DNA of 64,000 nucleotides from a virus. This document shows, in pieces, positions 3,445-61,315 of the stretch (within the stretch, counting starts at the first letter, position 1; every line of letters begins with the position of its first letter). Location: the IMG/VR virus record IMGVR_UViG_3300026538_000054, positions 1 to 64,000 of that record; one strand, given 5' to 3'. Made by a program: the position numbers and the translations under genes. Below the pieces are notes generated by a model. That model worked only from the letters and a program-made list of their open reading frames with translations, made no database searches and was not told where the DNA came from.

Positions 3445-3475
3445 GTAGGAGATCCACGAGAACAAGGATTGAAAC
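3445..3475 (+). promoter_or_regulatory. 31-base leader element, copy A
   Basis: GTAGGAGATCCACG is followed by AGAACAAGGATTGAAAC and then immediately by the ATG of the DNA polymerase. About 26 of 31 bases match the element at 14479-14509. The AAGG part is placed as a ribosome-binding site. The 3' end GGATTGAAAC is also the usual end of many type I CRISPR repeats, so a solitary foreign-type repeat is an alternative reading. Confidence 0.6.
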
Positions 3476-6400
3476 ATGGACCACCAAAGGCTGATTCCTC
3501 CTATGGAGGAGAATGAGTTGCCGCCGGGCCCCTCCTTTCTCGAGCAGGCCGAGCTCATGGGCGGCGGCAACTCCCTTGTAGAACTGCGACGAGACGTTCT
3601 CTACCGAAACGGGACGTGTCTGAACGTTCGGGTCAAGAAGGCGATCGTCACCGTCTCCTGCATCATCGGGCATCTCTGGGGCGAGGAGCTGCCCAGAGGC
3701 CCCGTCCCGGCTGACGTGATGGTCGTTGGCAAGTGGCCCGGCGATCAGGAGGCCTCGGCCCGAAGAAACCTGACCGGCCCGTCGGGCATCATGCTCTCCG
3801 AGTGTCTGAAAGAAGCCGGCGTCACGGGTGACGTGCAGGGAGGCCTCTACGTCACCAACCTGGTCAAACACCCCAGGGCCGACCCGTCTACGGACCAGGT
3901 CTCCTCCACGCAGTTCAAGGACTGGGCCCCGGTCCTTTCCGACGAGATCGCGCTGGTCAGGCCCAAGCTCATTCTCGCCCTGGGCGCCGAGGCCGCCAAG
4001 GCCGTGCTTGGCGCGAAGACGGCCGTCAAGGACGCGCAGTGCTGCTACTTCGAGCGGCAAGTCAGGGCCTTTGGCGAACATCCCGCCTACGCGGCCAGGG
4101 TCGTGGTGGTGACCCACCCTGCGGCCGTGGTGCGCTCCCCGGAGCAGCGCGCCTTCTTCATGGACGGGCTGCGTTACTTCGCAGGCGCCCTTCAGGGCAA
4201 GGTGCAGGCCAAGGAAGCGCCTGTGGACCATCGCGTGGTCTTTGAAGAGGACGAGCTTGCGCAAGTCGTGGACATGGTGATTCAGCGAGGAGGTCCGTCA
4301 CCCCTCATCGTCGTTGACGCCGAGTGGCACGGCGAGCACCAGTCGGAGAACGGCGCTTACCTACGTACCATCCAGTTCTCCGATCAACCGCGCTTCGGCT
4401 GCTGCGTGGTCTTGAGAGGGCAAGGAGGCGGCCCTGGTTTCTGCCCGTCGATCTCCCGCGCCGTCCCTCACCTGCGCAGGCTGTTGACCTCCTCTCCCGG
4501 AAGAGAAGTGCGCATCGCCGGCCACCATCTGCGTGCCGACATCCCGCGCATTTATCACGAGCTGGACAAGGAGCTGGGGCTGGCCCTGATGCGCCAGTAC
4601 GAGGCCGCCAAGAGCCCGGAGGAGATGCGCACCAGGGGCGGCCACGACACCATGCTCATGGCCCACGCGATCAGGGAGACCGGCTTCGCCGAGGGCTTCA
4701 AGCTGGAGTACGTGGCGCAGTCGCTTTTGGGGATGAAGCGCTGGAACGTCGAGCTGGAGCAGTGGAAGCACGACTACTGCCTCAAGCGAAAGATCCCGCA
4801 GAAACATCTGGAGGGTTATGGCGAGTGTCCTGACGAGGTTTTGCACCTTTACTCGATATACGACGTGGATGGCCCACAGAGGCTGCTCGAGCTCTTCACC
4901 AGGCCCGGCGGGCTTCTCGATGCGGACGAGCACGGCAACTCCTCCTGGTTGCCCTACTGGATCAGCATGCGGGCGCAGCAAGCATGGCTCGAGATCGAGA
5001 TGACTGGCCTCTACACCGACAAGAAGGAGAGAGGCCGAGAGCTCACGGAGACCTATCACCAGGCCGCCGTCGCGCTTCTTCAGGAGCTGAAGGTTGACGC
5101 GAACTGGACTGCGTTCAACCCTGGCAGCCACTTCGACTGTCGGGAGCTGCTTTTCGGCGAGCAGTACGCGGGCCGGAAGGACGACCGGACCAGGCCTCAG
5201 GGCGCGGTGTCGCTCTATCTCACTCCCGTCAGGACCACGGGCAAGCCGCCCAAGAACTGGGAAAAGGTGGTAGCTCGCAATGAGCAAGGGCTTTATACGC
5301 CATCGACTGACAAGGAGGTCCTGGGCATCCTTGCGCCCGGTAACCCCCTGGTGAAGAAGCTGCGCAACTGGCGCTTCCTGAGGCAGGTCACTACCAACTC
5401 TCTCAGGGCCCCTGAGACCGACGATGATGGACTGGTGGTGGAGGGCGATGACGGCGAGCCCTTGCAGCTGGGTGGTCTCCTGGGCTCGGTCCGCAGGGAT
5501 GGCCGGATCTACTCGCACTTCTTCCAGACGCAGGAGACAGGCAGGGCGCGATCCGTTAGGCCCAACCTGATGAACTGTACGAAGAGGAGGGAGAAGGACT
5601 ACAAGAAGATCCTTGGTGCGCACTACAAGTACGCCGTCCGTAGCATGTTCACGGCCACGCCCGTGGCGGAGGGCGAGGACCCCTGGCTGCTTGTGGACTT
5701 CGATCTCAAGGGTGCCGAGCTGATGATGACGGCCATCCAGGCGGCCGATCCCGTCATGCTTGACCATTGCCGTCGCAACAACCTGGATGAGGACGACCCG
5801 AACTATTACGACATCCACTCTGCGACGGCCGTGCGAGCCTTTAAGCTGCCATGCCCGCCTACCAAGAAGGGCCTGGAAGGTATCGGCAGGGAGAACTTGC
5901 GCATAGCCGCCAAGTGCGTTGTCTCAGGCTCCAGGCTCCAGACCACGGCTGGCTGGTTTCTGGTCGACTCGCTAGCGGGCGATCTTCCGCCTGACCAGGG
6001 CCGTCTCCATACCGGTGGCCTGGGAGTAGTCAATCACGTCTCGACGACGCCGGTCGTTGGCGTCTACAACGGCGGCGTCAAGCCGTGTCTGCGGGTCGAG
6101 ACCGAGGACGGCTACTCGCTGGAGAGTACGTACACGCATCGCTACTGGGTCATGGGCCCTGACGGCGACATGGTCTTCAAGCAGGCTGGCGATCTTCGGC
6201 TCGGCGACTGGGTGGTTGTGCGTGACGCGGTCGGCCCCTTCGGCGACGATATTGCGTTCCCGAAGGTCCCCTGCTCGCCCAGGACGAGCTTCAAGCCCGT
6301 CGATTTCCCCGAGGAGTTCACCGAGGACTGGGCCGCCTTCCTGGGCCTTTATATCTCTGAGGGCTGGTCCGATCCGGTGAGCGGCGCGGTGGCGATGCAC

Positions 6401-11973: not shown

Positions 11974-11993
11974 ATTCTTTTCCGGAAAAGAAT
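11974..11993. promoter_or_regulatory. TTTTCCGGAAAA palindrome, 20-bp version
   Basis: ATTCTTTTCC and its exact complement GGAAAAGAAT form a perfect 20-bp palindrome immediately after the stop at 11970. It is the longest member of a family with copies at 21696, 32250, 37809, 56959 and 61101. It directly precedes a CRISPR-repeat-like element. Confidence 0.7.
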
Positions 11994-11996
11994 TGC

Positions 11997-12033
11997 CTAC
12001 CAAAGCCCTCTGTAGCGGGCTAGAAGCTGCAAA
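11997..12033 (+). repeat. Solitary CRISPR-repeat-like element
   Basis: 37 bases with the array-repeat core AAAGCCCTCTGTAGCGGGCT followed by AGAAGCTGCAAA. The GCCC/GGGC stem bases are kept. A truncated second copy begins near 12049 (CTACCAAAGACCTCTG). It lies about 65 bases upstream of the next gene start and in the same sense. Confidence 0.85.
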
Positions 12034-14404: not shown

Positions 14405-14441
14405 GTCGCAGCATTGAGCCCGCCGCAGAGGGCTTTGATAC
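14405..14441 (-). repeat. Solitary CRISPR-repeat-like element, minus strand
   Basis: Read on the minus strand it is a 37-base copy of the array repeat with AAAGCCCTCTGCGGCGGGCT and ending ATGCTGCGAC. It lies between two + strand genes, so it is not in the sense of its neighbours. Confidence 0.85.
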
Positions 14442-14478: not shown

Positions 14479-14509
14479 GTAAGAGACCTACGAGAAAAGG
14501 GATTGAAAC
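14479..14509 (+). promoter_or_regulatory. 31-base leader element, copy B
   Basis: GTAAGAGACCTACG then AGAAAAGGGATTGAAAC, four bases before the ATG at 14514. Near-identical to 3445-3475. AAGGG may serve as the ribosome-binding site, but conservation extends well beyond that. Confidence 0.6.
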
Positions 14510-14513
14510 AAGC

Positions 14514-24616: not shown

Positions 24617-24653
24617 GTCGCAGCATTCAGCCCGCTGCGGAGGGCTTTGGTCC
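24617..24653 (-). repeat. Solitary CRISPR-repeat-like element, minus strand
   Basis: 37 bases, on the minus strand AAAGCCCTCCGCAGCGGGCT with ending ATGCTGCGAC. It lies in the 401-base gap upstream of cas12. That gap (24548-24948) also holds the + strand copy at 24787; I see no supported gene in it. Confidence 0.88.
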
Positions 24654-24786: not shown

Positions 24787-24823
24787 GCGCCAAGGCTCTC
24801 TGCAGCGGACTAAATGCTGCAAA
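24787..24823 (+). repeat. Degenerate CRISPR-repeat-like element upstream of cas12
   Basis: GCGCCAAGGCTCTCTGCAGC then GGACTAAATGCTGC. Diverged in both stem arms (GGCTC and GGACT instead of AGCCC and GGGCT). It lies 126 bases before the cas12 start, in the same sense, so it could be part of its regulatory region. Confidence 0.75.
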
Positions 24824-24948: not shown

Positions 24949-26835
24949 TTGAGCGAACAACTTGACGACACGCCCGAACAACCGAACGAGGTCGAAGAGA
25001 CCAAGAAGAGGAAACAACGCAACAAAGGCAAGCACCCGGCCAGGATCTGGAGCGTCTTCTCCAGATACCTGGTCTCGGGGCGTGAGCACTTCGACAAGCA
25101 GGTGCTCCTGGCCCATCGGTTCAGGAACAAGCTCGTGGAGCTGGAGCTCCAGCGGCGCGCCGCCGCCAACGTCGTGATCGCGCAGGCCTCTTCCGAGCTG
25201 CAGCCTTTGATCGACGCCCTGGCCGCCGCTGAGCAGGTTCTCGAAGTCAGTCTTCAAGAGCTGAAGGCCGTGAGGGCCAAGCACAGGAGAAGGGCTGAAA
25301 GCGCGGCGCAACGAGATGCTGTCACCAACGCGAGGACGGCTAGGAACCAGGCCTCCAAGGCCCTCTCTAAAGCCAGGAAGGACGCCTTCGCTTCCGAGGC
25401 GGCGCAGGTCGGCCTCTGGCTTGCGGAGGAGCACCACTTCCAGGCCGTCCTGGCCGCCCGTCATGCTTTCATCAACGACGGCCTCTACTGGCCGACGGCC
25501 ACGGACGTCCAGGACCGTGCGCGCGCCATGCGAAAGGGTGCCCCTCCCGTCTTCAGGCGGTTCGGCGGCGCGGAGCAAGCGGGCCGCATCGCCGTCCAGA
25601 TCCAGAAGAGCACCGACAAGTCCCAGTCTGAGGGCGGCATCACCTTTGAGGAGGCCTTCTCCTGCTCCCACGGCTTCTTCCGGCTGGAGAAGAAGCCAGG
25701 GCGCGACCCTTTGCCAGAGATCGCCGACCAGCCCGACTACAAGTCCAAACGGCAACAGCTCCTGACCTACGCCCGCGCCTGGCTGCGCGTCGGCTCGGAG
25801 GGCAAGGGCGCCAGGGCCAAGCCCTGCTGGGTCGTCGCCGATGTGCTTCTCACCCGGCAGGCCCCCAAGACGGCGCGGATCGTCCAGGTCTACCTGGACC
25901 ACTCGGTGATCGGCGATCGAGAGCGCTGGCGACTCAGCTTGGTGCTCACCAACCAAGAGGGCTGGCCCAAGCCCAACCGGGCCTCGGGCTGCATGGTCGG
26001 TATTGACCTCGGCTGGCGACTGCTCGATACCGGTGAGCTGCGAGTCGCCTACGCCTGCGGCGCCGATGGACAGCACCACGAGCTGCGGCTGCCCGCCTCC
26101 CTGGTCAAGGTCTGGCGCCGGCCCGATCGCATCCAGCAGGAGAGGGACAACCTCTTCAACGACGTCAAGGCGAGGCTCCTTGAGTGGCTCAAAGGGAGGG
26201 AGGACCTTCCCGACTGGCTCAAGGAGCAAGCGGAGCATCTGCATCTCTGGAAGTCATCCACCAGGCTCTCGCGGCTGGTGGATCACTGGGCCGGTCGAGA
26301 TATCAACTGGTCGAGCCAGAGGCGCATCGCCGGGGACGAGGAGATCCTCGCGTCCTTGCGCGGCTGGGTGAAACGCAACCTCCACCTGCGCGACTACCAG
26401 TATCACGAGCGTGAGCAGTTGGCGGCCCATCGTCTTGATGTCTACAGGAAGTGGGCTGACGGTCTGGCCAGGCTCTACCAGACGGCCGTCCTCGAAGACG
26501 CCGACTGGCGAGACCTAGCGCGACTCCCATCGCCTGAAGACGACGCCGTCAACGAGACCGCGCGCTACAACCAACGCATGGCCTCGCCCGGTCTACTGGC
26601 CTCCGTGATCACGAACATGTTCGCGATCACGAGCAGGGTGGAGTGCGCGAACACCACCAGGGAGTGCTGGCGCTGCGGCCATACGGAGGCGTTCGACGCC
26701 GAGGCGCAGTTGATCAGGGTTTGTCCTGGCTGCGGTGATGCGTGCGACCAAGACGAGAGCGCTGCTCGCGTCCTGCTCGCGAGAGGGCAGGCCCTAAACC
26801 AGTCACAAGTCGCCGAAGCTGCGCCAAGTTCTTGA
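24949..26835 (+). CDS. Compact Cas12-family (type V) CRISPR effector, Cas12m-like
   Basis: 628 residues from TTG at 24949, with AAGGAG upstream. The split RuvC nuclease domain is readable: RuvC-I GIDLGWRL with D353, RuvC-II TAVLEDADW with E516, a zinc ribbon CWRC (573-576) and CPGC (592-595), and RuvC-III DQDESAARVLL with D602. The N-terminal 340 residues are basic and partly coiled-coil, consistent with guide-RNA and PAM recognition lobes. It is larger than TnpB and much smaller than Cas12a. The GxDLGWR plus ELRVAYA signature and the size recall Cas12m/V-U1; other small phage Cas12 types are possible. Characterised Cas12m proteins bind rather than cut DNA, although all three acidic residues seem present here. 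No cas1, cas2 or cas4 is nearby; the CRISPR array follows. Confidence 0.85.
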   Translation: MSEQLDDTPEQPNEVEETKKRKQRNKGKHPARIWSVFSRYLVSGREHFDKQVLLAHRFRNKLVELELQRRAAANVVIAQASSELQPLIDALAAAEQVLEVSLQELKAVRAKHRRRAESAAQRDAVTNARTARNQASKALSKARKDAFASEAAQVGLWLAEEHHFQAVLAARHAFINDGLYWPTATDVQDRARAMRKGAPPVFRRFGGAEQAGRIAVQIQKSTDKSQSEGGITFEEAFSCSHGFFRLEKKPGRDPLPEIADQPDYKSKRQQLLTYARAWLRVGSEGKGARAKPCWVVADVLLTRQAPKTARIVQVYLDHSVIGDRERWRLSLVLTNQEGWPKPNRASGCMVGIDLGWRLLDTGELRVAYACGADGQHHELRLPASLVKVWRRPDRIQQERDNLFNDVKARLLEWLKGREDLPDWLKEQAEHLHLWKSSTRLSRLVDHWAGRDINWSSQRRIAGDEEILASLRGWVKRNLHLRDYQYHEREQLAAHRLDVYRKWADGLARLYQTAVLEDADWRDLARLPSPEDDAVNETARYNQRMASPGLLASVITNMFAITSRVECANTTRECWRCGHTEAFDAEAQLIRVCPGCGDACDQDESAARVLLARGQALNQSQVAEAAPSS

Positions 26836-27015: not shown

Positions 27016-28304
27016 GTGACAAAGCCCTGTGCAGCGGGCTCAAAGCTGCGACGGGTCGTGAGCCGTCTGCTCGAGACGGTCGGCGATCTGGTGACAAAGC
27101 CCTGTGCAGCGGGCTCAAAGCTGCGACTCGCTCATGGTTGCGTTCCTTTCGGTGGACCCGGTGGTGACAAAGCCCTGTGCAGCGGGCTCAAAGCTGCGAC
27201 TACAAGACCTGGATGACGATCTTCCCCAACGTCCCGCAGTGACAAAGCCCTGTGCAGCGGGCTCAAAGCTGCGACGTTGTCCGGCGGCTTCGGCTCGACC
27301 TGGATGATCTCGTGACAAAGCCCTGTGCAGCGGGCTCAATGCTGCGACGTACTATGTACCGGAAAAGGCTCTCGAGGAGGCCGTGTGACAAAGCCCTGTG
27401 CAGCGGGCTCAAAGCTGCGACGGCGGCTGTCTTCGAGTTCGCCTCCGGGAGGAGATGGTGACAAAGCCCTGTGCAGCGGGCTCAAAGCTGCGACTAATGC
27501 TCCTTTAACAGGCGGAACGCTTCTTCCGCCGTGACAAAGCCCTGTGCAGCGGGCTCAAAGCTGCGACAAACCGTGCCGAAAGGTATCCTCATGTCCGATT
27601 CGTGACAAAGCCCTGTGCAGCGGGCTCAAAGCTGCGACGTGCTGCTCGGGCTGCTCGGGCTGCTTGGGCTGCTTGGGGTGACAAAGCCCTGTGCAGCGGG
27701 CTCAAAGCTGCGACCGGCAAGCTGGACGTTCAGCGAGCGGCCGACGTGATGTGACAAAGCCCTGTGCAGCGGGCTCAAAGCTGCGACTAGCTGGCTGCCT
27801 TGCACGACTGCGCAAATGCCCGGAAGTGACAAAGCCCTGTGCAGCGGGCTCAAAGCTGCGACTGGGTGCGCGTTGACCAGGACAACCGCGAGCTGATCGG
27901 TGACAAAGCCCTGTGCAGCGGGCTCAAAGCTGCGACTCCAGCAACTGGGGCCCAGGCCGACCCTCGGGCACATCGTGACAAAGCCCTGTGCAGCGGGCTC
28001 AAAGCTGCGACGACCGGCGTTCCTCAAGTCGCAACACGGCCTTGCCAGGTGACAAAGCCCTGTGCAGCGGGCTCAAAGCTGCGACGCACATGTGTTCTTT
28101 TGTCCCCTGCTTCGCCACCGTGTAACAAAGCCCTGTGCAGCGGGCTCAAAGCTGCGACGGTTGCTGCCGACCGCTTGGTCGCGGAGGAGGTTCGCGTGCC
28201 AAAGCCCTCCCCAGTGGGCTAAAAGCTGCGACCGCCACTCCGTCACTTGAATGCTGTCGGTCTTTTTGTGCCAAAGCCCTACGCAGCGGGCTACAAGCTG
28301 CAAC
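27016..28304 (+). CRISPR. CRISPR array, 18 repeats, 17 spacers
   Basis: The repeat is 37 bases: GTGACAAAGCCCTGTGCAGC followed by GGGCTCAAAGCTGCGAC. Repeats start at 27016, 27091, 27164, 27239, 27312, 27385, 27458, 27531, 27602, 27678, 27751, 27826, 27900, 27975, 28049, 28122, 28196 and 28268. Fourteen are identical. 27312 has CAATGCTG instead of CAAAGCTG, 28122 starts GTAAC, and the last two are strongly degenerate, which marks the right end as the trailer. Spacers are 34-39 bases. Spacer 1 (27053-27090) matches this same window exactly at 37632-37669. Spacer 9 (27639-27677) is low-complexity. I found no other internal match by eye. The repeat can form an AGCCC/GGGCT stem. The 121 bases between the hairpin and the first repeat are the leader. 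Confidence 0.97.
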
Positions 28305-32267: not shown

Positions 32268-32750
32268 ATGGCCCGTGGTGCTGCTTGGTGGGACCGGTTC
32301 TTCCTGGGCATGGCGCAGTACGTCTCGACGGCGTCTAAAGACCCCAGCACGAAGGCTGGCGCCGTGGTTGTGGATGACAAACGCAGGGTCGTAAGTGTCG
32401 GCTACAACGGCTTCGCACGCGGCGTGGTTGACGACCCTGCACGCTACACTAATCGCGAGCTCAAGTACAAAATGATCCTGCACGCTGAGCGCAACGCGCT
32501 ACTGTTTGCCGGCCGATCGCTTGAGAACTGCGTCCTCTACACCTGGCCGTTCATGACCTGCTCCGTCTGCGCGGCGATGGTCATCCAGACCGGTATCGTT
32601 CGGTGTGTCGCCCCTCCCATACCTGACCATCTGCAAGCTCGCTGGGGCGAGGACATGGCCCTGGCCGCGACCATGCTCCGCGAGGCCGGCGTCAGTCTGG
32701 TCGTTTATGAGGGGGAGATCAACGAGCGCAAGGACTGTTGCAGCACGTAG
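32268..32750 (+). CDS. dCMP/cytidine deaminase-like enzyme
   Basis: 160 residues. Typical deaminase order: KDPSTKAGAVVVDD, VSVGYNGFARG, the zinc ligand and catalytic Glu in LHAERNAL, and the second zinc site FMTCSVCAAMVIQTG, where the usual Pro-Cys is Thr-Cys. It probably makes dUMP from dCMP for phage thymidylate supply. The 3' end overlaps a CRISPR-like repeat at 32742. Confidence 0.8.
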   Translation: MARGAAWWDRFFLGMAQYVSTASKDPSTKAGAVVVDDKRRVVSVGYNGFARGVVDDPARYTNRELKYKMILHAERNALLFAGRSLENCVLYTWPFMTCSVCAAMVIQTGIVRCVAPPIPDHLQARWGEDMALAATMLREAGVSLVVYEGEINERKDCCST

Positions 32751-32778
32751 CCCTCTGCAGCGGGCTGAAAGCTGCGAC
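32742..32778 (+). repeat. Solitary CRISPR-repeat-like element
   Basis: TAGCCCTCTGCAGCGGGCT followed by GAAAGCTGCGAC; the 5' third is diverged. It overlaps the last nine bases of the deaminase gene, including its stop. Confidence 0.8.
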
Positions 32779-33197: not shown

Positions 33198-33234
33198 GTC
33201 GTAGCTTTTAGCCCGCTACGGAGGGCTTCGGCAC
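33198..33234 (-). repeat. Solitary CRISPR-repeat-like element, minus strand
   Basis: On the minus strand: GAAGCCCTCCGTAGCGGGCT then AAAAGCTACGAC. It lies 31 bases upstream of the leftward exported-protein gene and in its sense. Confidence 0.85.
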
Positions 33235-36862: not shown

Positions 36863-36899
36863 TAATGCTGGCCCTCTGCAGCGGGCTGAATGCTGCAAA
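36863..36899 (+). repeat. Solitary CRISPR-repeat-like element
   Basis: GGCCCTCTGCAGCGGGCT followed by GAATGCTGCAAA; the 5' part is diverged. Begins seven bases after the regulator stop. The ATGCTGCAAAA end is repeated once immediately after. Confidence 0.8.
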
Positions 36900-37030: not shown

Positions 37031-37204
37031 GTACCAGAGCCATACGCAGCGGGCTAAAAGCTGCGAAGGATGGCGACCTGTGTCAAAGCCCTGCGCAGCG
37101 GGCTGAATGCTGCGAGAGGATGTCCCACTCCCTGGCCACGGTGGGTGACAAAGCCCTTTGCAGCGGGCTTAAAGCTGCGACGCAGCGGGGTAAGTGCTGT
37201 AACA
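37031..37204 (+). repeat. Cluster of three CRISPR-like repeats plus one fragment
   Basis: Copies at 37031-37067, 37080-37116 and 37145-37181, and a truncated one (GCAGCGGGGTAAGTGCTG) at 37183-37204. The copy at 37145 (GTGACAAAGCCCTTTGCAGC) is close to the array consensus. Intervals are only 12 and 28 bases, too short for normal spacers. The cluster lies directly upstream of the gene that array spacer 1 matches. Confidence 0.85.
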
Positions 37205-37223: not shown

Positions 37224-37724
37224 ATGTCCGAACACGAGTTGCTGCGCTCCATCAATCAACGCCTCGCACACATAGGCCGCTCGACGGACGCTATCGCCTC
37301 GGCTGTCTTCCTTATCGTGCGAAAGTTGCTCGATGAGGAGCAAGGTGGCCTGTCGCCCGAAGACGCCGCCAAAGTGCTCGCCCGACTGACGGCCCACGAC
37401 CAAGCTCTCGAGGACATCGTCGCCGAGCAAACCGACGAGAGCTCTTCCACGCTCGGCAAACACCACTCAGTAGCGAGAACCGCGATGGCTATTCCGCAAG
37501 CCTTGCAGGACATCTTGGCCAAGATTGACGCCGACACCAGCGCCCTGGCCGCGGTGGTCCTGGACCTGCGCAACAAGATCAGCACGGGCATGTCCCAGGA
37601 GGACGTGGTCGCCGTACAGACCACCCTGGGTCAGATCGCCGACCGTCTCGAGCAGACGGCTCACGACCCCAACGCGCCGGTGCCGCCCGGCCCTCAACCG
37701 GTCTTCGCCGGCCGCAAGCCGTAA
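37224..37724 (+). CDS. Coiled-coil phage protein, target of array spacer 1
   Basis: 166 residues from ATG at 37224. Two similar helical modules, IASAVFLIVRKLLDEEQGG and LAAVVLDLRNKISTGMS, each followed by a coiled-coil helix, with a PNAPVPPGP tail. Similar short coiled-coil proteins occur beside phage tail and virion genes. The gene is framed by two 40-bp perfect palindromes, preceded by a CRISPR-repeat cluster, and contains the exact protospacer of spacer 1 at codons about 137-149. Confidence 0.65.
   Translation: MSEHELLRSINQRLAHIGRSTDAIASAVFLIVRKLLDEEQGGLSPEDAAKVLARLTAHDQALEDIVAEQTDESSSTLGKHHSVARTAMAIPQALQDILAKIDADTSALAAVVLDLRNKISTGMSQEDVVAVQTTLGQIADRLEQTAHDPNAPVPPGPQPVFAGRKP
37632..37669 (-). 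other. Protospacer matching array spacer 1 (38 of 38)
   Basis: The minus strand from 37669 to 37632 is identical to spacer 1 at 27053-27090 (starts GGGTCGTGAGCCGTC, ends GGTCGGCGATCTG). The five bases 5' of the protospacer on that strand are CGTTG, so TTG is adjacent, as expected for T-rich type V PAMs. The 3' flank (ACCCAG) differs from the repeat, so the array itself is distinguishable from the target. Confidence 0.95.
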
Positions 37725-42231: not shown

Positions 42232-43278
42232 CTATTCTTTCTGCGCCGGCAGCAGATCGAGCTGGACTTTATGCCCACGCTTGGGGTAGGCGCGGTTGAC
42301 CATTTGCATCAGGTGGTCCCAAGAGTCGGCAGCGCGCATCAAACCGATCATCGCGTAGAGGTGTTGGGCAAGCGCCGGGTGTCCGACATCATCCGTGAAC
42401 CACTGGTGGTGCTTCGCTTCCCTGCCGCCGCGATCGGTCTTCGGGTTCTTCTTTTCCAGCTCTTCCAGCACTCCAGGAGCAAGGCGGGCATACACCAGGT
42501 CCTTGGTGTAGTTCGCCACGCACTGCGGTCGGTTGACCTTCATGCCCTTCCACTCCCACTTGCGCAGGCGGAAGATTTCCTTGTAGAAGTCATCCGGGAA
42601 CCGCTTCGCCCAGGCGGCGAACTCCTTGCGCAAGAACGCGTCAAGGATCGCCTGGAGGGCCTGTCGGTCGCGGATCTCTTGGTAGCCCGTCGCCTCATCG
42701 ACCAGCGCGATGATAGCGACGTGAGCCAGAGCACGTATCAGCATGTACGCCTTTTCGGCGGTCTGCTTCTGTGAGTCGGTCAGCACGCCAGCGTCCTTGG
42801 CCTTGAGCCAGACATCGCAGATGCGGGGGACCAACTCGGCCTTGAATCCGTAAGCCGTGCGGCCTCCGTGTTGCGGAACGTACTCGATCGGCTCAGTCAG
42901 CGACGCCGCTAAGTCTATGTCGATAAAGGGCTTGAGGTTGTCAGCCATCAAGAAATTGGGGAGTTTAGCGACGCCCTCCGACGAGGGCTCCGCGCCCGTC
43001 TTCTGTTTCGACGGGCCGCTGCCGGTGGTGTGGCGCCCTAGCGCAGCCGACATACCACGTTGCGAGACGACCCGAATGCCGCTCTTGAGGACGGCACAGG
43101 GAATGACTGCATCGCCGATGGTCAGATTGCCTTCGTGAGTCGCCTCAGGTGGCCCCCAGCGAGCGGCCGCGCCCTTCTTGGCGATTTTCTTCCTTTGTTC
43201 TTCCGACAGTTTCGCCGCTCGCGCACGGCCGCCCTTCGACGGGTCAGGGACGCCAGGTGGCTTCTTTTCCGCACTCAT
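42232..43278 (-). CDS. P63C domain protein, paralogue 1
   Basis: 348 residues. Basic N-terminus with a KKIAKKGAAARWG motif. The P63C region follows: CAVLKSGIRVVSQRGM, LPNFLMADNLKPFI, YGFKAELVPRICDVWL, ALAHVAIIALVDEATGYQE, FYKEIFRLRKW and KHHQWFTDDVGHPALAQHL. P63C proteins are common in phages and mobile elements and their role is unknown. It has a textbook promoter with operator-like repeats. A second paralogue is at 53552. Confidence 0.85.
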   Translation of the reverse strand: MSAEKKPPGVPDPSKGGRARAAKLSEEQRKKIAKKGAAARWGPPEATHEGNLTIGDAVIPCAVLKSGIRVVSQRGMSAALGRHTTGSGPSKQKTGAEPSSEGVAKLPNFLMADNLKPFIDIDLAASLTEPIEYVPQHGGRTAYGFKAELVPRICDVWLKAKDAGVLTDSQKQTAEKAYMLIRALAHVAIIALVDEATGYQEIRDRQALQAILDAFLRKEFAAWAKRFPDDFYKEIFRLRKWEWKGMKVNRPQCVANYTKDLVYARLAPGVLEELEKKNPKTDRGGREAKHHQWFTDDVGHPALAQHLYAMIGLMRAADSWDHLMQMVNRAYPKRGHKVQLDLLPAQKE

Positions 43279-53327: not shown

Positions 53328-53551
53328 TTGTCGTTCAGTGCCTTCTTCTCCTTTTTGCCAGCCGCTACACTAAGCATTTCCGATCTGATTTTTCGTCGTA
53401 AGCCAGTCGCTGATAAGGACTTTCGTCCGCGATACCAGTCTTTTGACCCGACGGATTTGTTGCCTGTCAGCCAGGCGCTGCGTAGCATAGTCATGCTTAG
53501 CCTAAGCACAGCCTGTCAGCCTACTTGGCGACTTAAAAGAGGAGATTGTTG

Positions 53552-54601
53552 GTGGAAAAAGTCATCGCTAAAGACGCTCCCTCACTGAGTGACGGAGCCA
53601 GGGGAGGCAAGAAGCGCGCGGAGGTCTTGACGGCCGAGCAGCGCAAGGCGATTGCCAGGCAGGCCGCGGAAGCTCGCTGGTGCAGCAAACTGCCTGTCGC
53701 CACCCACACGGGGACCATCAAGCTGGCGGACAGGGAGATTGCCTGTGCGGTCCTGGAGACGGGCCAGCGTGTCTTAACGCAGGAATCTTTCCTGGCGCTT
53801 ATCGGCCGATCGATCAAGCAGCGGGGCGGGCAGACCGTGGTTTTGTCCGAGGGCCTACCTCCCTTCCTGGCGGCAGACAACCTCTACGCGTTCATCTCGG
53901 ACGACTTACGGCGCGCCGCCACGCCCATCCATTTTTGCGCGCCGGCGACTGATGAGGGTCGCGGGCACCATCCTCGTCGCGCCTACGGTTACGATGCCAA
54001 CCTGTTGCCGATGGTCTGCGAGGTCTACCTGTCCGCCCGAGATGCCGGGAAGGCAACGCTGCAGCAATCGCACATTGTCGCCGCCTGTGATCTGCTCATG
54101 CGCGGCCTGGCCCGTGTCGGCATCACTGCGCTGGTAGACGAGGCCACGGGGTTCCAGGACTGCCGCGCCCGCGACGCGCTGGCCAAGATCCTGGAGGCGT
54201 TCGTTGCCAAGGCCTTGCGGCCCTGGGTCAAGACCTTCCCGCCCGAGTTCTACAAGGAAATGTTCCGGCTTCGTGGGCTGCCCTTCGCTGAGACGGTTCA
54301 GGGGCCGCGGTACATCGGACACCTGACCAACAACCTGGTCTACAAGCGCCTTGCGCCGGGCCTGCGCGAGGAGCTGGTCAGTAGGAACCCGGTCGGTGAC
54401 GACGGTCGTCGGAAGGCCAAGCACCACCAGTGGCTGACGCGGGACATCGGTCACCCCAAGCTCCTGGAGCACTTGCGAATCGTCACGTTGTTCATGCAGG
54501 CCTCCAAGGACTGGACCTCGTTTCAGCAGCAACTCGACATCGTCTTGCCGATCCTCTCCGCCGACGAGGAGCCGAAACCGAGCAAAAAGAAGAAGGCCTG
54601 A
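53552..54601 (+). CDS. P63C domain protein, paralogue 2
   Basis: 349 residues from GTG at 53552, seven bases after GAGGAGA; TTG at 53546 and 53549 are less well spaced. Same blocks as the protein at 42232: CAVLETGQRVLTQE, LPPFLAADNLYAFI, YGYDANLLPMVCEVYL, GLARVGITALVDEATGFQD, FYKEMFRLRGL and KHHQWLTRDIGHPKLLEHL. The N-terminal KAIARQAAEARW motif is shared too. Confidence 0.82.
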   Translation: MEKVIAKDAPSLSDGARGGKKRAEVLTAEQRKAIARQAAEARWCSKLPVATHTGTIKLADREIACAVLETGQRVLTQESFLALIGRSIKQRGGQTVVLSEGLPPFLAADNLYAFISDDLRRAATPIHFCAPATDEGRGHHPRRAYGYDANLLPMVCEVYLSARDAGKATLQQSHIVAACDLLMRGLARVGITALVDEATGFQDCRARDALAKILEAFVAKALRPWVKTFPPEFYKEMFRLRGLPFAETVQGPRYIGHLTNNLVYKRLAPGLREELVSRNPVGDDGRRKAKHHQWLTRDIGHPKLLEHLRIVTLFMQASKDWTSFQQQLDIVLPILSADEEPKPSKKKKA

Positions 54602-54657: not shown

Positions 54658-54767
54658 GTTCCAAAGCCCTGTGTAGCGGGCTAAAAGCTGCAACCGGTAG
54701 ACGGGGTGGCGCGAGAGCCACGGCTCGGCCGTGCCAAAGCCCTCTGCAGCGGGCTGAAAGCTACAAA
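54658..54767 (+). repeat. Two-repeat mini-CRISPR array
   Basis: Repeats at 54658-54694 (GTTCCAAAGCCCTGTGTAGC start) and 54731-54767 (GTGCCAAAGCCCTCTGCAGC start), period 73 bp with a 36-base spacer (54695-54730). The period equals that of the main array. It lies 39 bases before the gene at 54807 and in its sense. Confidence 0.88.
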
Positions 54768-56297: not shown

Positions 56298-56394
56298 GCG
56301 CGATTCGTTTACATCAGGTTCGCTCAGATACAATCAAGGGCCGACACGGCCTGGCGGCCGCGCTGTCTTTTTTGGCCGCAAGGCGAGTTGAAAT

Positions 56395-56817
56395 ATGAGC
56401 ATGTTGGTGGAAAGACCGGAGAAACTGATCCAGGTCCTCGAGCAAAGTCGCGACATCCTGCGGGAGATCCGAGACGGCATAGGCGGTGCTCCGCAGGAGC
56501 GCCCGGCTGATAACGGGCCTGACTTGTGGCTCTCGATCGAGCAGGCGGCGAAGCACGCTGCTCTCTCGCCTACCACGCTGCGTCGGGCCATCAAGCAAGG
56601 CCTTCTCGACGCCAAGAACGTCTCTTTGGGCAAGAAGCGCCCGACCTATCGGGTCACCATGCGACAGCTCAACAACTTCATCGAGAACGGAGGCGCCCCG
56701 GCGGACGAGCGCGTGCTCGAGTACCGGAGCCGCCACCTCCCTGAGCTGGCCCATGAGAACGGCGACGTGCTCGACGCCGACGTGGATGTCGAGACGAACT
56801 CAGGTGACCCGTCGTGA
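56395..56817 (+). CDS. Helix-turn-helix protein, excisionase-like
   Basis: 140 residues. Residues about 45-100, LWLSIEQAAKHAALSPTTLR then RAIKQGLLDAKN and PTYRVTMRQLNNFIEN, are a HTH_17/MerR-type fold as in excisionases. It faces the integrase gene across a repeat-rich gap, which supports a role in excision control. Confidence 0.65.
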   Translation: MSMLVERPEKLIQVLEQSRDILREIRDGIGGAPQERPADNGPDLWLSIEQAAKHAALSPTTLRRAIKQGLLDAKNVSLGKKRPTYRVTMRQLNNFIENGGAPADERVLEYRSRHLPELAHENGDVLDADVDVETNSGDPS

Positions 56818-56820
56818 TCG

Positions 56821-56930
56821 GTTGCGGCATCCAGCCCGCCGCACAGGGCTTTGACACACGGTGAGACTGGGCGTAGCGTCATCGGTTCACGATGTTGCAG
56901 CTTTCAGCCCGCTGCAGAGGGCTTTGGAAC
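56821..56930 (-). repeat. Two-repeat mini-CRISPR array, minus strand
   Basis: Copies at 56894-56930 and 56821-56857, both minus strand, period 73 bp, spacer 36 bases (56858-56893). It lies four bases after the excisionase-like gene and antisense to it, so it cannot be its promoter. Confidence 0.88.
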
Positions 56931-56958
56931 AACGGCTAGATTATCAACAGGGAAGTTC

Positions 56959-56970
56959 TTTTCCGGAAAA
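56959..56970. promoter_or_regulatory. TTTTCCGGAAAA palindrome
   Basis: Perfect 12-bp palindrome between the minus-strand mini-array and the solitary repeat at 57069. The gap also holds a GGGGCGGCCGG/CCGGCCGCTC inverted repeat (57025-57066). Confidence 0.6.
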
Positions 56971-57068
56971 CGTGTTGTAGGCCCCGAAAATTCCTCTCCT
57001 GGGCGCGTATAAGAATAGTAGGGAGGGGCGGCCGGGTAAGGCCGGGACGGACCTGCCGGCCGCTCTTC

Positions 57069-57105
57069 CCATCTAAGCCCTGTGCAGCGGGCTCAATGCT
57101 GCAAA
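57069..57105 (+). repeat. Solitary CRISPR-repeat-like element
   Basis: TAAGCCCTGTGCAGCGGGCT followed by CAATGCTGCAAA. Very close to the array consensus, including the CAATG variant seen in array repeat 5. It faces the 3' end of the integrase gene. Confidence 0.88.
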
Positions 57106-57118
57106 GCGTTGTCGAATA

Positions 57119-58249
57119 TCAGCGACCCATCCTCTCTTTCTCGTCGGCCTTTTTCAGCGCTTCCGCAGCCAGGTCGCCCGCCCGCGAGACGTCCTCGGCG
57201 CTCAGGTGCAAGTAGTGCTTGGCCATGGTCAGGCTGGTCCAGCCGCCCAGAAGCTGCAACTGCGGCCCGGTGGCCCCGCCTCTGGCCGCCTGGGTCAGGA
57301 TCGTGTGTCTGCTGGAGTAGGCCACGAGTTGTTCGCCGTCTTTTTCTTCCACGCTCGCTCTTTCTCTCAGCCGCCGAAACCAGACGCAGAAGTAGTCCTT
57401 GGTCCAGCGACCGCCCTCGGAGTTGGGAAAGAGCGGCAGGCTCTCCACTCCCGGTCGCTTCTTCTCCAGCCAGACGATCATCTTCATGAGCGGCGCGGGC
57501 AGGCTGATCACCCTGGGCGCCTTGGCCTTGGTCGTCCTGGCCGTCTTGTGCTGCCTGAGGATCAGGAGCCGCTTCTCTTTATCCAGCATCGAGCGCTGCG
57601 CCGTTCTCATCTCCCCCGGCCGCATGCTGGTGAGCCGCAGCGCGTAAAGGGCGATCTTCTGCTCGGGCGCCTTGCAGGCCGCGAGTAGCCTGCGAAACTC
57701 CTCGTTGGTCATGAGCCTGGACCTCGGCTCGGCGGACAGCCTCTTGACGCCGGCGGCCGGGCCGTCGTCGGCGAGCAGCTCGGCCTCTTTCCAGCCCCAG
57801 CGCCAGAGCCTTCGCAGCGCCCTGATCACGTTGTTGACCGTGGCCGGCTTGTACTTCTCGGCCATGTCGTTTCGCAGCTTGAGCACGTCCGCCTTCTTGA
57901 CCCTCCCCACGCGCCAGCCCTTCCAGGCCCTGAGGGCGTAGCGGAACTGCTCCTTGTAGAACTCGTAGGTCCTTTCCGCCTTCGTGGCCTTGACGTCGTC
58001 GAGGAAGAGATCAACGAGCTTGGTCAGGGGCATGTTGGCCCCTTCTCGTCCTCCCTGCGCCTGTCGGCCCTGGAGCTTCGCCAGGGCCTTGGCCGCCTCC
58101 GCCTCGGTGTCCGCCAGGAAGGTCCTCTCCTTGCCGGCGTCGGTGTACCAGCCGTCTCTCCAGAAGAAAGGCTTCGCTCTTCGGGGCACGCGCCACCTCT
58201 TTTCCGGCCCTAACCTGTCCGATCTCGTCTGATCAACTAAAACTGACAC
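57119..58249 (-). CDS. int: Tyrosine recombinase (integrase)
   Basis: 376 residues on the minus strand; GTG at 58249 is the longest start and may be slightly too long. An N-terminal KPFFWRDGWYTDAGK segment, a SAM-like core-binding domain (residues about 75-160) and a catalytic domain with R210 (TSMRPGEM), K235, R314 and H315 in YSSRHT (Tyr replaces the usual first His), W337 and the nucleophile Y346 in MAKHYLHL. It suggests a temperate phage or integrated element. Repeats upstream form a candidate attP. Confidence 0.85.
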   Translation of the reverse strand: MSVLVDQTRSDRLGPEKRWRVPRRAKPFFWRDGWYTDAGKERTFLADTEAEAAKALAKLQGRQAQGGREGANMPLTKLVDLFLDDVKATKAERTYEFYKEQFRYALRAWKGWRVGRVKKADVLKLRNDMAEKYKPATVNNVIRALRRLWRWGWKEAELLADDGPAAGVKRLSAEPRSRLMTNEEFRRLLAACKAPEQKIALYALRLTSMRPGEMRTAQRSMLDKEKRLLILRQHKTARTTKAKAPRVISLPAPLMKMIVWLEKKRPGVESLPLFPNSEGGRWTKDYFCVWFRRLRERASVEEKDGEQLVAYSSRHTILTQAARGGATGPQLQLLGGWTSLTMAKHYLHLSAEDVSRAGDLAAEALKKADEKERMGR

Positions 58250-59251: not shown

Positions 59252-59288
59252 TCCTTTTAGCCCTCTACAGCGGGCTAAAAGCTGCGAC
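59252..59288 (+). repeat. Solitary CRISPR-repeat-like element
   Basis: TTAGCCCTCTACAGCGGGCT followed by AAAAGCTGCGAC. Its 5' bases merge with the T-run of the terminator. It lies 28 bases upstream of the gene at 59317 and in its sense. Confidence 0.85.
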
Positions 59289-61207: not shown

Positions 61208-61315
61208 AGACCAAAGCCCTCCGCAATGGGCTAAAAGCTGCGACGGAGGCGGGAATACGCGACGACGCGACGTTCTACTTGCCAAAGCCCTCTGTAGCGG
61301 GCTAAAAGCTGCAAT
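61208..61315 (+). repeat. Two-repeat mini-CRISPR array
   Basis: Repeats at 61208-61244 (AAAGCCCTCCGCAATGGGCT core) and 61279-61315 (AAAGCCCTCTGTAGCGGGCT core), period 71 bp with a 34-base spacer (61245-61278). It lies 78 bases before the gene at 61394. Confidence 0.88.

Follow-up and report, generated by a model that had tools for sequence, protein, structure and literature searches.

What role can a pair of CRISPR repeats have in the gap between the excisionase and integrase genes of a phage? The window, i.e. the whole 64,000-nt stretch of viral DNA that we analysed, carries such a mini-array on its minus strand: two 37-nt CRISPR repeats (56930-56894 and 56857-56821) flanking a 36-nt spacer. 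A preliminary description, made from the sequence alone, took it for a possible source of guide RNA placed at the lysis-lysogeny control region.

A two-repeat mini-array beside the excisionase-like gene

A repeat search recovers the two copies as direct repeats (56821-56858 and 56894-56931), 82% alike and with starts 73 nt apart; on the minus strand both read GTNNCA-AAGCCCTNTGCRGCGGGCTNNANGCYGCAAC. The gene to the left (56395-56817, plus strand) is excisionase-like (HTH_17; phrog_66, E-value 1.5e-6) and the gene to the right (57119-58249, minus strand) encodes a tyrosine integrase (phrog_1, E-value 6.8e-48). These searches confirm what had been described, namely two minus-strand repeats 73 bp apart next to an excisionase-like gene and, given the 37-nt repeat, a spacer at exactly positions 56858-56893. 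A third copy of the repeat (57075-57105, plus strand), absent from the preliminary description, stands alone between these two genes and reads into the integrase gene at its 3′ end, in antisense.

The repeat that would be transcribed first (56894-56930) keeps the crRNA pseudoknot, and in the second one (56821-56857) a pseudoknot pair is changed on both sides (GCGGC/GCCGC versus GCAGC/GCTGC). A -10-like GATAAT (56940-56945, minus strand) is found 21 nt ahead of the first repeat core, and a sequence scan places a TTTTCCGGAAAA palindrome further upstream (56959-56970). A generic sigma-70 scan of positions 56300-57200 returned zero promoters and does not list this GATAAT; Rfam and tRNA searches of the 64-kb window were both empty. 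The orientation of the repeats had been taken to exclude a promoter role, which is a weak argument because the mini-array seems to bring its own promoter.

The repeat belongs to a type V-M system of the phage

The window corresponds to positions 102146-166145 of a contig (C51) within a 5.39-Mb assembly. This contig is 199,122 bp long and, because its ends overlap by 100 bp, is probably a complete circular phage; it has phage replication genes, a baseplate protein and a weak terminase match. It also encodes a 628-aa Cas12m-type effector (24949-26835, plus strand; PADLOC Cas12u1, E-value 4.9e-75; PDB 23vw_A Cas12m, E-value 2.8e-52) whose RuvC positions read D-E-D. Directly behind the effector gene sits the main array (27016-28304, plus strand), with 18 repeats (16 near-identical and 2 degenerate at the far end) and 17 spacers.

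The mini-array repeat is that of the phage itself. When the assembly was queried with the array repeats, all of the matches (36/36) fell on C51, and in a wider search (E-value up to 10) 41 of the 48 matches did so, the remaining 7, on other contigs, having E-values of at least 0.2. C51 resembles known type V-M (Cas12m, or V-U1) systems in its effector family, in the array adjoining the effector gene and in a 36-37-nt repeat with a pseudoknot, the last judged from covariation only. One report describes D-E-D Cas12m variants as binding DNA without cutting it and Cas12m as processing pre-crRNA (PMC11013384); another describes the Cas12m2 crRNA as a pseudoknot scaffold with 17-bp pairing and silencing through binding (PMC10442227). 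Type V-U systems are described from huge phages (PMC7162821), and V-M has been reported on plasmids and some prophages.

Repeat copies are dispersed between phage genes

With up to three mismatches, the 19-nt repeat core occurs 32 times in the window compared to 0.07 times expected (100 shuffles). Seventeen of these matches form the proper array beside the cas12m gene (27022-28292). On the entire contig, we found 36 dispersed copies besides the 18-repeat array (up to 7 mismatches over the 28-nt core), 18 of them within the window. The copies are mainly intergenic: at up to 8 mismatches and with the 16 near-identical array repeats excluded, 36 of 45 lie entirely outside called genes on a contig that is 9.2% intergenic by our own gene calls rather than those of a standard gene finder. 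The 45 include the 2 degenerate array-end repeats as well as a chance match read in reverse at 32740-32767.

For example, two further mini-arrays lie on the plus strand (54664-54767, two repeats 73 nt apart, and 61214-61315, two repeats 71 nt apart), as does a cluster of three repeats with starts 49 and 65 nt apart (37037-37181). Single plus-strand repeats are found at 12003-12033, 32748-32778, 36869-36899 and 59258-59288, and at 24793-24823, 128 nt ahead of the cas12m start. On the minus strand, single repeats at 14405-14435 and 24617-24647 are opposite to both of their adjoining genes, and another at 33198-33228 has the pseudoknot GTAGC/GCTAC; the copies at 24617 and 33198 have a -10 box at -19. 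In places the repeats of C51 are only 44-53 nt apart, giving guides that are too short.

Dispersed copies keep the pseudoknot

In the C51 repeat core, we tested the pseudoknot pairs 2-6/15-19 and 10-14/24-28. Across the copies 97.6% of cells are paired and three pairs have changes on both sides; the compensated copies include the second repeat of the mini-array. The covariation score is 0.122 compared to 0.095 under shuffling (1 of 500 as high) and at most 0.046 under sliding, the shuffle leaving the relatedness of the copies in. In an unrelated phage with its own repeat (G102, see below), 97.0% of cells are paired with 5 double-change pairs in 26 cells, and the score is 0.346 compared to 0.218 when shuffled (0 of 500 as high). 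Covariation in these sequences thus supports the conclusion that compensatory changes preserve the crRNA pseudoknot in dispersed copies.

The copies do diverge from the array consensus and some clusters resemble tandem duplications, as would be expected if they were functionless relics, i.e. decayed array fragments spread by recombination. Nonetheless, double changes preserve the pairing in both repeat families tested, which are unrelated, the copies are mainly intergenic and -10 boxes stand at fixed distances from them, and we regard relics as improbable.

Promoter signals upstream of dispersed units

In C51 the best -10 match lies exactly at -19 in 10 of the 33 units that come first in their cluster, the main array among them. 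Under a strict -10 rule, 5 of 7 units with an opposed upstream gene have a box, compared to 5 of 20 with a co-directional one (p value = 0.065, weak when taken alone). In a second phage with dispersed repeats, G109, all 6 units with an opposed upstream gene have a -10 at -13 or -11, compared to none of the 3 others and a background of 2.8%, and the main array of G109 has TATAAT at a distance equal to that of its dispersed units. With C51 and G109 pooled, 11 of 13 compared to 5 of 23 units have -10 boxes (Fisher p value = 4e-4). When applied at the G102 position, the -10 rule picked out none of 25 units; five antisense units of G102 have a nearly identical upstream stretch in common, with a TAAGCT box. 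Because -10 boxes recur at fixed distances in C51 and G109, the dispersed units appear to be built for transcription, either by their own promoter or by read-through.

For the mini-array this makes a source of guide RNA plausible, as had been suggested: its repeat is common to the V-M array of the phage, the pseudoknot is kept and a GATAAT box precedes it on the minus strand.

Spacer targets

The mini-array spacer has no seed of at least 12 nt elsewhere in C51 (seeds of at least 10 nt were searched for). In the bacterial genome that shares its bin with the phage, the match is a 17/18 partial one at the far end of the spacer, at chance level (E-value 1.4). Exact 22-mers gave no match in viral_contigs, plasmids gave none, and in the phage set the mini-array has a single match, on the second repeat, and none on the spacer. 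As a set, the dispersed guides match C51 itself no more often than shifted controls do.

The main array has matches in the phage itself, where 2 of its 17 spacers match genes. Array spacer 1 (27053-27090) matches 38/38 on the minus strand at 37632-37669, inside the gene at 37224-37724; its 5′ flank there, GTTG, is TTN-like and compatible with the TTN reported as the PAM of GoCas12m (PMC11013384). Spacer 15 (28086-28121) matches another C51 gene at 34/36, with 5′ AATC. The best matches of the other 15 spacers have 8 mismatches (a low-complexity spacer, against itself) or at least 12. For spacer 1, exact 22-mers gave no convincing target in viral_contigs. Two other candidates for array targets were rejected: among 60 related genomes searched with the main array, the best non-self match is weak (E-value 3.8e-5, 88% over 41 nt), and one plasmid match (E-value 5e-6) involves an array spacer of low complexity.

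These results bear on the proposed control of lysis-lysogeny through targeting of int, xis or attB. The mini-array does sit between convergent xis and int genes, and transcription from it could continue into xis in antisense. However, no target in attB or in xis/int was found, given that seeds of 12 nt or longer are absent elsewhere in the phage and the bacterial match is at chance level. The special place given to this site found no support either: like units occur at many unrelated loci, and because the repeat is scattered genome-wide in C51, as are those of three other Cas12m phages, the xis/int neighbourhood is one site among many. We therefore consider this role highly improbable.

Dispersed repeats recur in other Cas12m phages

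The effector alone as query found no close relatives in viral_contigs; the Cas12m alignment A1 gave 29 viral loci and 2 genome loci. An array finder detected arrays at 19 of the 29 viral loci, two of which (L048 and L054) represent a single phage, with 100% identity over 15,212 bp. Because their extra copies are second arrays (L031, L041) or lie mostly near the array (L032, L056), these four loci were not counted as dispersed. A repeat-pattern scan of genome_contigs found nothing, and a candidate from such a scan, L025, was discarded as a chance-like hairpin.

When whole records were checked, scattering of a phage's own repeat was also seen in three other Cas12m phages, whose repeat sequences are unrelated, but not in two further ones. 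In G102 (177,773 bp) the repeat is a different one, present in 37 copies; five make up a short array, and 33 of the 37 are intergenic compared to 7.0% expected. G103 (109,753 bp) has 7 array copies and 7 others, one of them doubtful, and G109 (locus L030; 201,946 bp) has 11 array copies and 9 others. By comparison with C51 and its solitary or paired, often promoter-driven repeats, Rctr197k and G113 (192-197 kb) showed only compact arrays: no copies outside the array in Rctr197k (197,311 bp) and, with 3 mismatches allowed at most, none in G113 (192,260 bp). Close to a transposase-like gene (L017:14574-14828), Rctr197k carries another short CRISPR array, unrelated to its Cas12m array.

On a Cas12m tree of 27 of the 31 proteins (L036, L049, L050 and L053 were left out), C51, G102 and G103 are not grouped; 3 changes are needed, at least 2 of them forced by supported branches, with L030 (G109), whose copies were found later, not labelled as dispersed. 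The tree fits separate gains of scattering as well as repeated losses.

The placement of the units allows another reading, in which repeats in mRNA leaders and intergenic regions would be bound or processed by Cas12m and would thereby control the adjoining genes, antisense units acting via antisense RNA. Many C51 copies are indeed co-directional and just ahead of a gene, and three repeats of G109 end 11-16 nt ahead of a start codon. On the other hand, units opposed to both neighbours occur in C51, G102 and G109, and the mini-array itself reads against the next gene; we hold regulation by RNA leaders to be rather unlikely.

Proposed function of the mini-array

The reading that we prefer, and which we judge to be evenly poised between right and wrong, is that the locus is a promoter-driven two-repeat V-M mini-array, one of the sites formed by the 36 dispersed copies, and that it would supply the phage's own Cas12m with RNA directed at a competing mobile element. 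Transcription would start at about the first repeat base. The RNA would then fold into the Cas12m crRNA pseudoknot, as covariation suggests, and the match between repeats predicts that the phage's Cas12m would load it. By analogy with characterised Cas12m proteins, the complex would bind DNA matching the spacer and block transcription without cuts. The likely target would be a competing mobile element and not the phage's own int and xis genes. At solitary copies, where the downstream sequence is fixed by the adjoining genes, the product may mainly occupy Cas12m.

In favour of units that produce guides we count the presence of effector and array in one genome, the intergenic bias, the covariation, the -10 boxes and the 2 of 17 spacers that match phage DNA. 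Against it we count that a target of the mini-array spacer was found in none of the sets searched, that the guide set does no better than shifted controls, that the promoter comparison in C51 is weak by itself and that the -10 rule picks out no unit in G102.

Part of the data points elsewhere. In G109, 7 of 9 guides overlap the adjoining coding sequence. Together with the short-spaced repeats of C51, this fits better with occupancy of Cas12m or with a guide taken in place; guides that are too short or lie in coding sequence argue that selection there keeps the repeat and not a chosen guide. One possibility is a self-directed RNA anti-CRISPR, in which the repeats would act as decoys, tying up the Cas12m of the phage or of a relative infecting the same cell and thereby adjusting its dose; they could, for instance, limit silencing by the array spacers that match the phage. 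The promoter-then-repeat anatomy is that of the Racr solitary repeat units (SRUs) described in one report (PMC10651486), and the guides within coding sequence and the two self-matching spacers would suit such decoys. Nevertheless, the same report describes Racr SRUs without cas gene association, and the two-repeat units with repeats 71-73 nt apart retain spacers of normal length. Decoys are in our view unlikely, though worth keeping in mind.

As a minority view, some Cas12m phages may carry a distributed CRISPR: dozens of units, sited at promoters, ahead of start codons or in antisense to 3′ ends, would make Cas12m-bound RNAs, the guides of which would be cut in place from neighbouring sequence of the phage. 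Relatives without a unit could then be silenced at many homologous sites, the phage's own copy being safe because the repeat fills the PAM position, or the RNAs could tune Cas12m as a self-made anti-CRISPR.

Comparison with known viral repeats

Some of the dispersed copies of C51 are solitary intergenic repeats directly preceded by a putative promoter, which is the arrangement described for the Racr SRUs of phages (PMC10651486). Unlike those units, said to lack cas association and to mimic a host repeat, C51 has a cognate cas12m and array, its array repeat matches only the phage contig in the assembly, and its copies number dozens, some being paired around a spacer as in the two-repeat mini-array. 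The latter, with one spacer between two repeats, also resembles the viral mini-arrays linked to inter-virus competition, which are described as having one or two spacers, carrying host-like repeats and targeting related viruses (PMC11656645, PMC8616872). In contrast, the C51 repeat is the phage's own, has no significant match on other contigs and is not host-like relative to the bacterial genome binned with it, which need not be that of the host.

In searches of the open-licence PMC literature, we did not find scattered units beside the phage's own cas12m. So far, viral SRUs have mostly been interpreted as inhibiting host CRISPR or as orphan fragments. Here, single repeats match an effector encoded by their own genome, retain their fold and are seen again in phages whose repeats are unrelated in sequence. 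This makes testable the idea that phages use a cleavage-free Cas12 as a genome-wide, RNA-addressed silencer, or that RNA decoys restrain it.

Other dispersed elements in the phage

The TTTTCCGGAAAA palindrome found upstream of the mini-array has 13 exact copies on C51 (window positions 11978, 21696, 32250, 37809, 56959 and 61101, and 7 more). With up to one mismatch it occurs 16 times on C51 compared to 0.15 expected, mostly between genes and several times near dispersed repeats, and it is likely an operator or promoter element. A second element, GGTGTCAATATCTCTTGCCGC (up to 3 mismatches), has five intergenic copies (17360, 42103, 58554, 62040 and, beyond the window in the same numbering, 76187) and is perhaps a promoter class.

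C51 also encodes two P63C-domain proteins (42232-43278, minus strand, and 53546-54601, plus strand). Finally, two genes are directly preceded by similar 32-nt leaders (3445-3476 and 14479-14510) that end in GGATTGAAACA at or just before the start codon, an ending that we take to resemble the end of a class 1 CRISPR repeat.
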